Source: Loktanella sp. 3ANDIMAR09 (lineage in GTDB: Bacteria > Pseudomonadota > Alphaproteobacteria > Rhodobacterales > Rhodobacteraceae). Taken from it: a stretch of 64,000 nucleotides of DNA. The number at the start of each line of letters is the position of its first letter. Position 1 is the first letter of the stretch. The notes under the pieces were generated by a model. The model saw only the letters and a program-made list of their open reading frames with translations, searched no databases and was not told where the DNA came from. Shown in pieces: positions 6,746-40,605 of this stretch. The DNA lies in contig NZ_LJAK01000003.1 of the NCBI RefSeq assembly GCF_001420005.1, positions 124,001 through 188,000 of the forward strand. Direction: 5' to 3'. The translations under genes were made by a program, and so were the position numbers.

Positions 6746-6767
6746 GAGTATTTTCAGCAAGATGATG
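6746..6767 (+). repeat. Dispersed repeat, copy b (tail motif only)
   Basis: GAGTATTTTCAGCAAGATGATG lies 11 bases after the permease stop, in the sense direction. It matches the tail of the other repeat copies with two or three differences but lacks the strong GC-rich hairpins in front. Confidence 0.5.
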
Positions 6768-33953: not shown

Positions 33954-33993
33954 CATCATCTTGCCAAAAATACTCGCCCGCCGCAGGCGTCCC
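33954..33993 (-). repeat. Dispersed palindromic repeat, copy c (inside operon)
   Basis: On the minus strand the sequence reads GGGACGCCTGCGGCGGGC followed by GAGTATTTTTGGCAAGATGATG. It fills the intergenic gap between the ATPase and permease genes of one operon, directly after the ATPase stop, so it cannot be an efficient terminator here. Confidence 0.65.
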
Positions 33994-35517: not shown

Positions 35518-36257
35518 GCGCGGCGGTCCTGTCTTGCGGCGGTCTGTCGCATCATCGCGGATGCGACACCAATGGCAATGGCCTGCGGATGTTTTCCCAG
35601 CCCCGGATCGCCGATTGGACAGGCGATGCGTGCAATTTGTGCAGGCGCATGACCCAGGGATTGCAAGCGCCCCCGAAACCGTGCCCATTTCGTGGCCGAT
35701 CCGATCAGCCCCACCGTCGTAAAGCGCCGCGACAGGATGGCATGGCACAAATCCAGATCGATCCTGTGCGAATAGGTCACGATCAAATGATGGGCCTCAT
35801 CGGGCGCATGGGCCACGGCCCGTACCATGTCTGCGGCCACCAGCGGGGTCACATGCGATGGCATCATCGGGGGCATCCGGTCGGCCGCGTCGTCGATCAA
35901 CGTCACGGACCACTCCGGCAGCGGGGCCATCGTGGCCGCAATGGCGCGACCGACATGCCCTGCACCCCAGATCCACAAGGGTGCGCCATTGGGTGGCTCC
36001 AGCCGGTCCGCCACATCATACGCAAGGGTCACGGATCCGCCGCAGCATTGCCCCAGCGCAGGCCCCAGCGGCACGGTCTGGCGGCTCTGCGCCAGGCCGT
36101 CACGCAGCATCGCACGGGCGTGGGCGATGGCCTCCCATTCCAGGGCACCGCCACCAATGGTGCCTTCGGTGCGGTCCGGCCAGACCAGCATGGCCGTGCC
36201 TGCCTCACGGGGCACCGACCCTGCGGTCTGGCGCACGATGATGCGGATTGCCGTCAT
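35514..36257 (-). CDS. xdhC: Xanthine dehydrogenase accessory protein XdhC
   Basis: XdhC binds molybdenum cofactor, protects its sulfurated form and inserts it into xanthine dehydrogenase. The 247 residues start MTAIRIIVRQTAGSVPREAG, with the family's TIGGGALEWEAI block, QCCGG near residue 90, and the Rossmann-like WIGAGHVGRA-type segment (IWGAGHVGRAIA). Coupled to xdhB upstream and to the ABC ATPase gene downstream by 4-base overlaps. The N-terminus is about 15 residues shorter than I expect for the family. Confidence 0.93.
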   Translation of the reverse strand: MTAIRIIVRQTAGSVPREAGTAMLVWPDRTEGTIGGGALEWEAIAHARAMLRDGLAQSRQTVPLGPALGQCCGGSVTLAYDVADRLEPPNGAPLWIWGAGHVGRAIAATMAPLPEWSVTLIDDAADRMPPMMPSHVTPLVAADMVRAVAHAPDEAHHLIVTYSHRIDLDLCHAILSRRFTTVGLIGSATKWARFRGRLQSLGHAPAQIARIACPIGDPGLGKHPQAIAIGVASAMMRQTAARQDRRA

Positions 36258-38674
36258 CGCTGACCCTTGGCGCGCAGGGTCGCTGCCAGAACCTGTTCGG
36301 CGGTCGCGGGGGCTTGCAGGTCCGGCCAATGCGGCCCGCAGGACGCCACCGCATCCACGAGTGCGGCAAAGTTCGACACGCCCAGCATGAACGGCGGCTC
36401 GCCCACGGCCTTGGACCGGTAGATTGTCGCGGCGGGGTTCGGCTGGTCCCACAGGTCCACGTTGAACACCGGCGGGCGATCTGAACAGGCCGGGATCTTG
36501 TAGGTGCTGGGTGCATGGGTCCTGAGCGTGCCCGCCGCGTCCCAGACCAGTTCCTCCATGGTCAGCCAGCCCGCACCCTGCACATAGCCGCCCTCGACCT
36601 GTCCGATATCAAGGGCAGGGTTCAGCGAGGCACCGGCGTCATGCAGCACATCCGTGCGCAAGATGCGGTTTTCGCCGGTCAGGGTATCGACCACCACCTC
36701 GGTGATTGCACAGCCCTGGGCAAAATAGAAAAACGGACGTCCCTGTCCGGCGATCCGGTCCCAGGCCAGGTCCGGTGTCTTGTAAAATCCGGTGGCCGAC
36801 AAGCTGACCCGGTTCTGATAGGCGGTCAGGGCCGCTTGCGCAAAAGTCATGGACTCGCCTGCGACCGTCACTGTGTTATCCCCGAACACCACCGTCTGTG
36901 GTGCGACCTGGTGCAGCGCGGCCAGACAATCCGCAATCCGGTCCCGGATCGTGTCACAGGCGATCGCCACAGCCATGCCGTTCAGATCAGCCCCGGACGA
37001 GGCTGCGGTCGCGCTCGTGTTGGGCACCTTGTCGGTATCGGTCGCGGTGATCTTGATCGCACCCACATCCACGCCGAAACGAGACGCCGCAACCTGCGCG
37101 ACCTTCTGGAACAACCCCTGTCCCATCTCGGTGCCGCCGTGGTTCAGGTGGATCGACCCGTCCTGATACACATGCACCAGCGCACCAGCCTGATTGAGGT
37201 GCGTCAGCGTGAACGAAATCCCGAACTTGACCGGGGCAAATCCGATGCCGCGTTTCAACACGGGCGATCCTGCGTTCCAATCCGCAATCGCCGCACGCCG
37301 GGCGGCATAATCTGCCTTATCCAGCAGCCGGTCGGTCATCTCGTGCAGAATGAAGTCTTCGACCGCCATGCCGTAGGGCGTGGTATTCACATCGCCAGCC
37401 ACGACCGCGTGCCGATCGTCCGCCACGGTCTGTGATCCGCGCGATGCAAGGTCCGCATGCATCATCTTGCCGGAAATACTCTCGGGGGGGGCCGCAGGCC
37501 GGGGGGCAGACAGCCCCCCTGCGACATCGCCCATCGCGCGGTAGTAGTTGACCCGGCGCACCGCGACAGGGTCCAGCCCAAGGGTCTGTGCGACGTGGTC
37601 CATCACCCGCTCGATCCCCACGACGCCCTGCGGCCCACCGAACCCGCGAAAGGCGGTGGCACTTTGCGTGTTGGTTTTCAGCCGGTGTGACGTGATCCGG
37701 CAGGCGTCCAGCAAATAGGCGTTGTCGGCATGCAGCATCGCGCGGTCGGCCACGGGCAACGACAGATCCATCGCCCAGCCACAACGCGCATAATGCGTGA
37801 AATCCACAGCCTGCAGTCGGCCACCTGCGTCAAATCCCACGTCGTAGTCGATGGTGAAATCATGCCGTTTCCCGGTGATGACCATGTCATCGTCGCGGTC
37901 ATAGCGCATCTTGCACGGACGCCGCGTGACAGCGGCGGCCACAGCGCAAGCCACGGCCAGCGCATTGCCCTGGCTTTCCTTGCCGCCGAAACCGCCGCCC
38001 ATCCGGCGCACGGCCACGCGGACCGCGTGCATGGGCACGCCCAGTGCCTCTGCGACCTTGTGCTGGATTTCGGTGGGATGCTGGGTGCTGGAATGCACCA
38101 GCATGTCGCCCGCCTCTTGCGGGATGGCGAGGGCGGATTGCCCTTCGAGGTAGAAATGTTCCTGCCCGCCCATGGTGATCCGGCCTTGCAGGCGGTGGGG
38201 CGCTTTGGACAGGGCGGCGTCGGGGTCGCCCTTTGTCCAGACGCGCGGTCCATCCTCGAACCGGCTGTCGGCGGCGAGGGCCTGTTCCACCGTCAGGATC
38301 GGGTCCTGTGCGTCATAGGTGATCCGCGCCAGCGCCGCGGCACGGCGGGCCTGACCATGGCTATCTGCGATCACCAGGAACACGGGCTGGCCCGCATAAT
38401 GCACGGTGCCGTCGGAGAGCAGCGGCTCGTCATGGTTGGACGGGCTGACGTCGCAGGCGCGCGCCAGATCGTCCGCTGTCATCACCATGACCACGCCCGG
38501 TGCCGCGCGCACGGCGTCAAGGTCCATCGCCGTGATCGTGCCGCGCGCGCAGGTCGACAGGCCAAAGGCCAGCGACAGCGTGTTCGCGGGTGTCGGGATA
38601 TCATCCACATAGCGGGCGGCCCCTGTCACATGCAGGGCCGCGGCGTCATGGGGCAGGGGTTTCGCGACACTCAT
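36254..38674 (-). CDS. xdhB: Xanthine dehydrogenase, molybdopterin-binding large subunit
   Basis: Catalytic subunit that hydroxylates hypoxanthine to xanthine and xanthine to urate at the Mo centre. About 806 residues. Family motifs: the substrate-channel HFYLEGQSALA near 172, RRMGGGFGGKES near 222-233, FRGFGGPQGV near 341-350, HLNHGGTEMGQGL near 508, and the catalytic glutamate in SKAVGEPPFMLG near 753-764. Residues about 381-427, between VRRVNYYRAM and NTTPYGMAVEDF, are extra compared with the usual short link; 386-405 are encoded by a dispersed palindromic repeat. The frame is kept, so the enzyme may still work. Confidence 0.94.
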   Translation of the reverse strand: MSVAKPLPHDAAALHVTGAARYVDDIPTPANTLSLAFGLSTCARGTITAMDLDAVRAAPGVVMVMTADDLARACDVSPSNHDEPLLSDGTVHYAGQPVFLVIADSHGQARRAAALARITYDAQDPILTVEQALAADSRFEDGPRVWTKGDPDAALSKAPHRLQGRITMGGQEHFYLEGQSALAIPQEAGDMLVHSSTQHPTEIQHKVAEALGVPMHAVRVAVRRMGGGFGGKESQGNALAVACAVAAAVTRRPCKMRYDRDDDMVITGKRHDFTIDYDVGFDAGGRLQAVDFTHYARCGWAMDLSLPVADRAMLHADNAYLLDACRITSHRLKTNTQSATAFRGFGGPQGVVGIERVMDHVAQTLGLDPVAVRRVNYYRAMGDVAGGLSAPRPAAPPESISGKMMHADLASRGSQTVADDRHAVVAGDVNTTPYGMAVEDFILHEMTDRLLDKADYAARRAAIADWNAGSPVLKRGIGFAPVKFGISFTLTHLNQAGALVHVYQDGSIHLNHGGTEMGQGLFQKVAQVAASRFGVDVGAIKITATDTDKVPNTSATAASSGADLNGMAVAIACDTIRDRIADCLAALHQVAPQTVVFGDNTVTVAGESMTFAQAALTAYQNRVSLSATGFYKTPDLAWDRIAGQGRPFFYFAQGCAITEVVVDTLTGENRILRTDVLHDAGASLNPALDIGQVEGGYVQGAGWLTMEELVWDAAGTLRTHAPSTYKIPACSDRPPVFNVDLWDQPNPAATIYRSKAVGEPPFMLGVSNFAALVDAVASCGPHWPDLQAPATAEQVLAATLRAKGQR
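37460..37519 (-). repeat. Dispersed palindromic repeat, copy d, in frame inside xdhB
   Basis: On the minus strand: a perfect 7-bp hairpin GGGGGGC-TGTCT-GCCCCCC, then GGCC-TGC-GGCC, a C-run, and GAGAGTATTTCCGGCAAGATGATG. The order of parts is the same as in copy e at 40133. It is translated as residues 386-405 of XdhB (within SAPRPAAPPESISGKMMH). Confidence 0.8.
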
Positions 38675-40023: not shown

Positions 40024-40132
40024 GAATATTGTCCGCCGCGATACCGGATGTGCAGGAACGGGCGCGTCGATGCGGCGTAGACGCGGCCCGGTGAACAGAA
40101 AACCGGATCGGGCTGCATTTGGCAAGTGCGGA

Positions 40133-40186
40133 GGGGGCGCTGCCCCCGGCTGCGCCTCCCCCGGAGTATTTTTGGCAAGATGATAC
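40133..40186 (+). repeat. Dispersed palindromic repeat, copy e
   Basis: GGGGGC-GCT-GCCCCC hairpin (40133-40147), GGC-TGC-GCC (40148-40156), a C-run and GGAGTATTTTTGGCAAGATGATAC. This is the fullest copy. It lies in the 219-base divergent gap between xdhA and the VOC gene, where it is not at the 3-prime end of any gene, so terminator function alone does not explain it. I see nothing else definite in that gap. Confidence 0.75.
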
Positions 40187-40242: not shown

Positions 40243-40601
40243 ATGACGGGTTTCAGGATTTCGGCGCTGCATCATGTCCAACTGGCCATGCCAGAAGGGG
40301 CAGAGGATATGGCGCGTGCGTTTTATGTGGGGCGGTTGGGGCTGACCGAGGTGGCAAAGCCTGCCGCCCTTGCCGGGCGGGGCGGCGTCTGGTTCGCGGG
40401 TGGCACGCTGTCGCTGCACCTGGGTGTCGAGGACCCATTCCGCCCGGCGCGCAAGGCGCATCCCGCGTTGAGTGTCGATGATCTCGTGGCGGCGCAGGCT
40501 GCCTTGGGGGCGCGCAGATCACGGTACTGCCGGGGTTGCGGCGGTTCTATGTCGATGACCCCTTTGGCAACCGGATCGAAATCGTGCAGCCCTTGGCCTG
40601 A
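40243..40601 (+). pseudogene. VOC (glyoxalase/bleomycin-resistance fold) family protein, frameshifted
   Basis: From the ATG at 40243 the frame reads as a VOC protein: MTGFRISALHHVQLAMPEGA with a metal-type histidine, RAFYVGRLGLTEV, GTLSLHLGVEDPF, LSVDDLVAAQAALG. At the G-run 40505-40509 the frame breaks. The expected ending, ITVLPGLRRFYVDDPFGNRI then EIVQPLA and a TGA at 40599-40601, continues in the neighbouring frame. The span is 359 bases, one short of 120 codons, so one G is missing. Either the gene is recently inactivated or the base was lost in sequencing. Otherwise the length (119 residues) is normal for a single VOC domain. Confidence 0.8.
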
Positions 40602-40605
40602 CTGG

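Follow-up and report, generated by a model that had tools for sequence, protein, structure and literature searches.

A dispersed palindromic repeat read in frame in the XdhB linker of Loktanella sp. 3ANDIMAR09 and other Rhodobacteraceae

The xanthine dehydrogenase gene xdhB of Loktanella sp. 3ANDIMAR09 contains, within its open frame, a palindromic DNA segment that also occurs between genes, which raises the question of how repeat DNA came to be read as amino acids in this enzyme and what kind of repeat it is. In this study, we analysed a 64,000-nucleotide stretch of contig NZ_LJAK01000003.1 (the window), the rest of the genome and the corresponding genes of other Rhodobacteraceae.

The repeat copy in xdhB and its dispersed relatives

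The three domains expected in the xdhB product (MoCoBD_1, MoCoBD_2 and Ald_Xan_dh_C) were found with Pfam, and 1jro_B was its top solved-structure match. The repeat copy inside the gene (Table 1) is 61 bp long and runs from 37519 to 37459 of the minus strand as G6-CTGTCTG-C6-GGCCTGCGGCC-C6-GAG-AGTATTTCCGGCAAGATGATGC, with the inner palindrome GGCC-TGC-GGCC. The frame is open throughout the copy, and residues 386-405 of XdhB read GGLSAPRPAAPPESISGKMM. The sequence-only reading had described a dispersed palindromic repeat inserted in frame, with the same order of parts as the intergenic copy beside xdhA, and both points were borne out: the core in xdhB is exact, and the order of parts is identical. 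That reading had also described an extra segment at about residues 381-427. Only 20 of these roughly 47 residues (386-405) belong to the repeat, and the others (406-429) are ordinary linker, whose DLASRGS motif is present in relatives without the repeat, for example L124. Next to xdhA, a VOC/glyoxalase-like gene (40243-40602, named by eye) has an apparent frame change near 40510, as in a pseudogene or a sequencing error.

Table 1. Position of xdhB, its repeat copy and the other core copies in the window
Feature	Position	Strand	Description
xdhB	36254..38674	-	Xanthine dehydrogenase molybdopterin-binding subunit, 806 aa; ORF, Pfam and solved-structure match
In-frame repeat copy	37459..37519	-	XdhB residues 386-405; G-run, C-run, inner palindrome, C-run, head, tag; from sequence
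Core, host tag I	37462..37481	-	GAGTATTTCCGGCAAGATGA
Palindromic scaffold	37484..37519	-	GGGGGGCTGTCTGCCCCCCGGCCTGCGGCCCCCCCC
Rest of XdhB linker, residues 406-429	37388..37458	-	Non-repeat; DLASRGS motif seen in relatives
Intergenic copy, same element	40130..40185	+	Between xdhA and divergent VOC-like gene (named by eye)
Further core copy	33956..33975	-	L050; scaffold differs
Further core copy	6746..6765	+	Without G-run scaffold

The core pattern GAGTATTTNNNNCAAGATGA, searched in the window with up to three mismatches, gave 4 exact matches, whereas 0.07 would be expected, and all of 100 shuffles stayed below 4. In the whole genome (3.67 Mb, up to two mismatches) there were 63 exact copies and one copy with two mismatches, and the reversed pattern had no match in the same 3.67 Mb. 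By these counts, a chance origin of the repeat match was rejected. Among the 63 copies, the letters fixed in the pattern do not vary, by construction; the tolerance of two mismatches gained only one more copy, and positions outside the fixed letters were also held, with G at 61/63 and 63/63 just before CAAGATGA and T at 63/63 just after it. The spacer of the pattern is fixed, so that variants are missed; C4:313194, where the spacer is longer, is at least one such case. The 5' part of the dispersed copies is variable: some have a TCCGGCGGG scaffold, others one of two kinds of G-run/C-run scaffold or a T-run, and others have no such part. A clear palindrome is not present in every one of the 63 copies. 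Inverted pairs of cores, about 12 to about 160 bases apart, were seen in this genome (G000:C5:187578-187629) and in G002, G087, G044 and G116.

A simple codon-score gene caller, trained on 109 ORFs, placed 42 of the 63 copies between codirectional genes (24 sense, 18 antisense), 15 between convergent genes, 1 between divergent genes and 5 inside genes. Copies in divergent spacers number at least two, counting the intergenic copy of Table 1, which was called codirectional (among the 18) and is divergent by eye. Two in-gene calls (L055 and L187) were dropped, the copy lying at the called gene start with a poor coding score before it, so three of the five in-gene copies were kept. In the broad sense these are the features of a REP-like repeat: a small palindrome in many copies, at gene 3' ends and rarely between divergent genes. 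We did not favour a directional terminator because copies stand in both orientations to their codirectional neighbours, although some do follow terminator-like hairpins. A known RNA family was rejected as well, with no Rfam match in the window at gathering thresholds.

Behind the head, the copies end in discrete tags. The pattern of scaffold end plus head occurred at 75 places in this genome and at 2 in the reversed control; by hand count of the 75, about 31 carried GGCAAGATGAT, 27 ACCAGAAGAAG, 8 AAAACAGCGA and 9 other sequences, that is, three discrete host-specific tags. Other genomes have tags of their own: at least three in G110 (GCAAGATGAAG, GCAAGAGGAAG and ACCAGAAAGAAGC), at least two each in G087 and G088 among the matches listed, one or more each in G092, G044, G113, G122, G067 and G031, and several among the 59 places of the single-contig genome G003 (reversed control 6). 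G098 had two places only, both chance-looking, and G116 had four, two of them chance-looking. A narrower first tag pattern had found nothing in 6 of 16 genomes; two of the six, G113 and G098, were examined again, and own tags were found in G113 only.

The core also has a strand preference. With each 3-kb locus oriented to put the core on the plus strand, GC skew was positive in 56/63, and among loci in which most genes are oriented opposite to the core it was still positive in 15/19, so the polarity is not explained by gene direction alone. Core strand also clusters by contig (p 0.003). The repeat copies follow the G-rich strand, which is presumably the leading one. The polarity varies by tag, because among 20 skew samples of G003 read by eye the AAC-type tags went with the G-rich strand at 12/15 sites and the AAAAGAAGAA-type tag in only 1/5, and two further tags were mixed.

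The XdhB linker and two other enzymes across the family

We compared 170 XdhB loci, 110 (L061-L170) and then 60 (L210-L269), of which 169 linkers were parsed and L258 was left out; the rows include near-duplicates (L062 and L093; L109 and L230), and related species among them are not independent. Scaffold and TATTT together were present in 53 of the 169 linkers, and 52 of these 53 share one frame. In a family sample of 120 genomes, xdhB was obtained from 90 and parsed in 89, spanning 88 genera; scaffold plus TATTT was present in 30 of the 89 and any scaffold in 42, and a looser scaffold rule gave 44/89, some of which may be chance G- or C-runs. The architecture of the Loktanella copy recurs in 57 xdhB linkers and in dispersed copies. 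The same site is filled in many genera, which does not support the idea of a single unusual insertion, and the length difference between homologues is only partly repeat. An assembly artefact, the other explanation considered at the outset, is excluded because the copy recurs across many independent assemblies. The nearest named records by XdhB identity were Loktanella sp. SALINAS62 and Salipiger sp. IMCC34102 (84% each), followed by Loktanella salsilacus.

The linker itself is hypervariable, from 6 to 85 residues with a median of 29 in the 89 genomes. The sequence-only reading expected its flanks to be almost adjacent in other XdhB proteins; this holds for rat XDH, which has zero residues at the site and contiguous aligned parts, and for a minority of relatives, but not for the family at large. 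Homologues with linkers of similar length exist, as that reading had allowed, but many of those linkers are themselves repeat copies. In the crystallised XdhB of Rhodobacter capsulatus, a related peptide, GGLSAP-PSPPEPIATK, stands at the linker site, which suggests that this loop is a repeat relic; the R. capsulatus element is known here as peptide alone, with a best identity of 72% among 4 genomes of one genus.

Because the linker is rich in Gly, Ala, Pro and Ser as well as variable in length, an ordinary low-complexity linker might resemble the repeat by chance. This explanation is extremely improbable, as it is contradicted by the exact 20-base core and the host-specific tags, and TATTT is five times denser in the linkers than elsewhere in xdhB (2.6 vs 0.5 per kb; 80 loci, L091-L170).

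Other sequences were also seen in XdhB linkers. In L101, L102, L115, L126, L127 and L134, another short palindrome, GTAAGRTGGRTCTTGAYCCA, encodes RKMGLDPSP or RKVDLDPPA and is possibly a second repeat family at the same XdhB site. The motifs [KR][FY]GGxHSP and D[LI][AT]SRG recur in linkers of many genera, with or without repeats, and both seem by eye to be better conserved in protein than in DNA. [KR][FY]GGxHSP was not counted as a second repeat, because by eye its DNA looks more variable than its protein.

The presence of the repeat is labile. We scored presence by the looser scaffold rule on a tree built with FastTree from XdhB sequences from which the linker had been removed. In the 89 genomes (88 genera) it changed 29 times, where shuffled labels gave 29.5 on average (23-35). 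When all 169 rows were used, it changed 42 times and shuffles gave 55.6 (minimum 44), a phylogenetic signal which indicates that close relatives share the presence of the repeat.

XdhB is not the only protein involved. The repeat was sought in other coding sequences of this genome, as the sequence-only reading had recommended, and was found in two: BchB holds a second copy in sense orientation (DASGGSISGKMM), and CobN holds one in antisense (FIILPEILPAEAS). BchB was found in 61/149 genomes, one match being doubtful; among 27 linkers parsed from 30 loci, three (own included) have the element with TATTT, and four more are element-like by eye, at different offsets. Peptide types of the XdhB linkers also occur in BchB linkers. 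The CobN region was matched in 101/120 genomes, many by weaker relatives; among 9 loops parsed from 30 loci, AAATA stands in the same frame in four (own included) and is missing from five, three of which are short.

For 12 genomes, the xdhB tag was compared with a hand-picked subset of the listed dispersed tags, xdhB rows excluded. In 10 of the 12 (three of these with ties), the xdhB tag matched the dispersed tags of its own genome best or equally best, with scores of 11/11 bases in nine genomes and 10/11 in G092. The total was 126 against a permuted mean of 105.7, and none of 20000 permutations reached 126. In the other two genomes, G087 and G116, the xdhB tag had no match among their own listed tags.

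Reading frame, palindromes and the origin of the in-gene copies

In an AlphaFold model of modest quality (mean pLDDT 67.9, 21 sequences), XdhB residues 383-426 form the longest stretch with pLDDT under 50 and no secondary structure, and the loop is thus modelled, at low confidence, as disordered. The R. capsulatus XdhB chain is 777 residues long by its sequence but 760 in the library of solved structures, and the 17 absent residues may include the loop. About five of six frames are open in the xdhB copies, yet the frame is constant. It is the least hydrophobic frame in 47 xdhB copies but not in the 63 dispersed ones, so that the former, but not the latter, agree with selection of the frame that is most hydrophilic. 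Scaffolds without TATTT made up 21/75 in xdhB (some perhaps not true scaffolds) against 0/19 among dispersed copies (p 0.006), a comparison that leans towards this result because the 19 dispersed copies came from a TATTT-bearing query; the coding copies seem to decay more than the dispersed ones.

The inner part of the element was examined in the 57 linkers with the order G-run, C-run, inner sequence and C-run. It has at least 8 bases in 50 of them, and 30 of these 50 have a perfect stem of at least 4, with 27 distinct arms among the 50. Compared with 200 shuffles each, 16/50 fell under 0.05, with a median fraction of 0.14 and a Fisher combined p of 2e-13 that ignores relatedness. The RNA fold of the xdhB element had an energy of -29.9 kcal/mol, and the two window copies folded had z of -2.23 (xdhB) and -2.30. 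The element in the L259 linker holds a palindrome whose stem is 11 bp long. An inner palindrome that changes its sequence and often stays palindromic, a fold z of about -2.2 and strikingly uniform dispersed cores (63 exact and one other within two mismatches) could mean that the in-gene copy is a selected nucleic-acid element, an RNA hairpin or a protein-binding site, with the peptide as by-product. We consider this unlikely: the element is absent from about half of the genera, the coding copies appear the more decayed, and palindrome-correcting mutation or fresh insertion would equally preserve perfect stems.

The constant frame means that random independent insertions would need selection, or else that there was one ancestral insertion followed by replacement. 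The latter, an ancestral xdhB insertion that was inherited vertically, had its DNA continually overwritten through gene conversion by dispersed copies (concerted evolution) and was lost in many lineages, is a possible explanation that we rate below even odds. It accords with the frame kept in 52/53 although other frames are open, with tags that match the host genome, and with L069, where one extra base in the head puts the tag in another frame and leaves the scaffold in the usual one, as if one module had been rewritten. Against it, scaffold types in xdhB differ (G-run 62 and TCCGGCGGG type 13, n=75), presence has no phylogenetic signal across genera, and the BchB element lies at differing linker offsets, which suggests separate arrivals. 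This alternative overlaps with the replacement half of the explanation we prefer.

We believe that a REP-like element has probably inserted, or been replaced, again and again in tolerant linkers, where it is kept as a harmless peptide and then decays. The element would be a Rhodobacteraceae repeat made of three modules, namely a palindromic scaffold that varies, a head with TATTT at its end and a host tag of about 10-12 bases, usually located just behind gene 3' ends. It would land and be replaced repeatedly in a few flexible linkers: in XdhB between the two molybdopterin-binding halves, in BchB ahead of the conserved C-terminal part, and in CobN in one loop. A copy in a gene would survive if it can be read through as a harmless flexible peptide, and would then decay, in the end disappearing or giving way to the current repeat of the genome. 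We infer arrival by insertion or by repeat-templated replacement, proteins that still work and a peptide that has no function of its own. Several observations weigh against recurrent insertion or replacement: no mover was found (Y1_Tnp being the only one sought), the tags of G087 and G116 fall outside their listed tags, the 169 rows carry a signal, and the structure model is weak.

More tentatively, and with more doubt than conviction, we speculate that the tags, which are discrete, almost invariant and specific to their hosts, number several in some genomes and in at least one case are oriented with the leading strand, belong to a system for dispersal or recognition in Rhodobacteraceae that has not been described and that works on DNA while it is single-stranded or being replicated. 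The in-frame copies in XdhB, BchB and CobN would be the by-catch of this system. If this were true, such by-catch would go on supplying bacteria of ordinary genome type with new stretches of protein.

Comparison with known repeat systems

DNA uptake sequence dialects have a short near-invariant core with lineage variants, stand beside terminator-like palindromes and occur within some genes. The present repeat resembles them in its short near-invariant core, its lineage-specific variants, the adjoining terminator-like palindromes and the copies in genes. It differs in its number (about 64 copies of the main core), in having more than one tag in several genomes, and in its strand polarity. Among the open-licence PMC papers listed in our searches, none named a Rhodobacteraceae repeat or tag system like this one.

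The GTAG and CGTC super-families of REPs are described in passages of PMC3733652 as lying at gene 3' ends, for the most part in spacers of the unidirectional or convergent kind; its section 15 already lists intragenic REPs within ORFs of several species, and the recB of two Xanthomonas species is REP-filled at about one site. Rhodobacter, Roseobacter and Paracoccus have zero mentions in the main text of that paper. The likeness is evident, since here too small palindromes stand beside gene 3' ends, some copies lie inside ORFs, and one gene site is filled in several species. However, the present element has a host-specific tag of about 10-12 bases on its 3' side, behind TATTT. At the hairpin base (within 6 nt 5' of the G-run), GTAG or CGTC occurred in 0/17 scaffold copies; anywhere in a 71-base stretch, GTAG occurred in 2/63 copies and CGTC in 9/63. 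The transposase domain Y1_Tnp (PF01797) had no match in this genome, and 5 of 14 control genomes were positive. With neither Y1_Tnp in the genome nor GTAG/CGTC at the hairpin base, a REP with RAYT was rejected, and by the features tested the XdhB element is no GTAG/CGTC REP.

The closest behaviour is that of the Rickettsia palindromic elements (RPE), of which the studies of Ogata et al. from 2000 and 2002 are reportedly the source. The likeness drawn in the sequence-only reading, outside the Rickettsiales, stands: both are dispersed palindromes, occur in frame inside unrelated metabolic proteins (here XdhB, BchB and CobN), have several families per genome and are tolerated. The differences are that the host is a member of Rhodobacteraceae and not Rickettsia, that the element is mostly intergenic, at gene ends, and that in many genera copies occupy one and the same protein loop, as a rule with a tag of the host concerned. 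The length differs too, at 61 bp here against about 150 bp for RPE in a passage of PMC10969869, which describes these elements. By the features tested, the XdhB element acts like an RPE but is no described RPE.

It was through intracellular Rickettsia that palindromic repeats inside proteins became known, and section 15 of PMC3733652 lists in-gene REPs for several other species. In this study, the XdhB loop has been filled repeatedly across many Rhodobacteraceae genera, usually with the tag of its own genome, and two more enzymes behave alike. How repeat-encoded peptides insert, are tolerated and decay can thereby be tested directly. The repeat appears to have been gained and lost at the XdhB site many times in different genera, so that ordinary enzymes seem to go on taking up repeat DNA in the form of additional residues.
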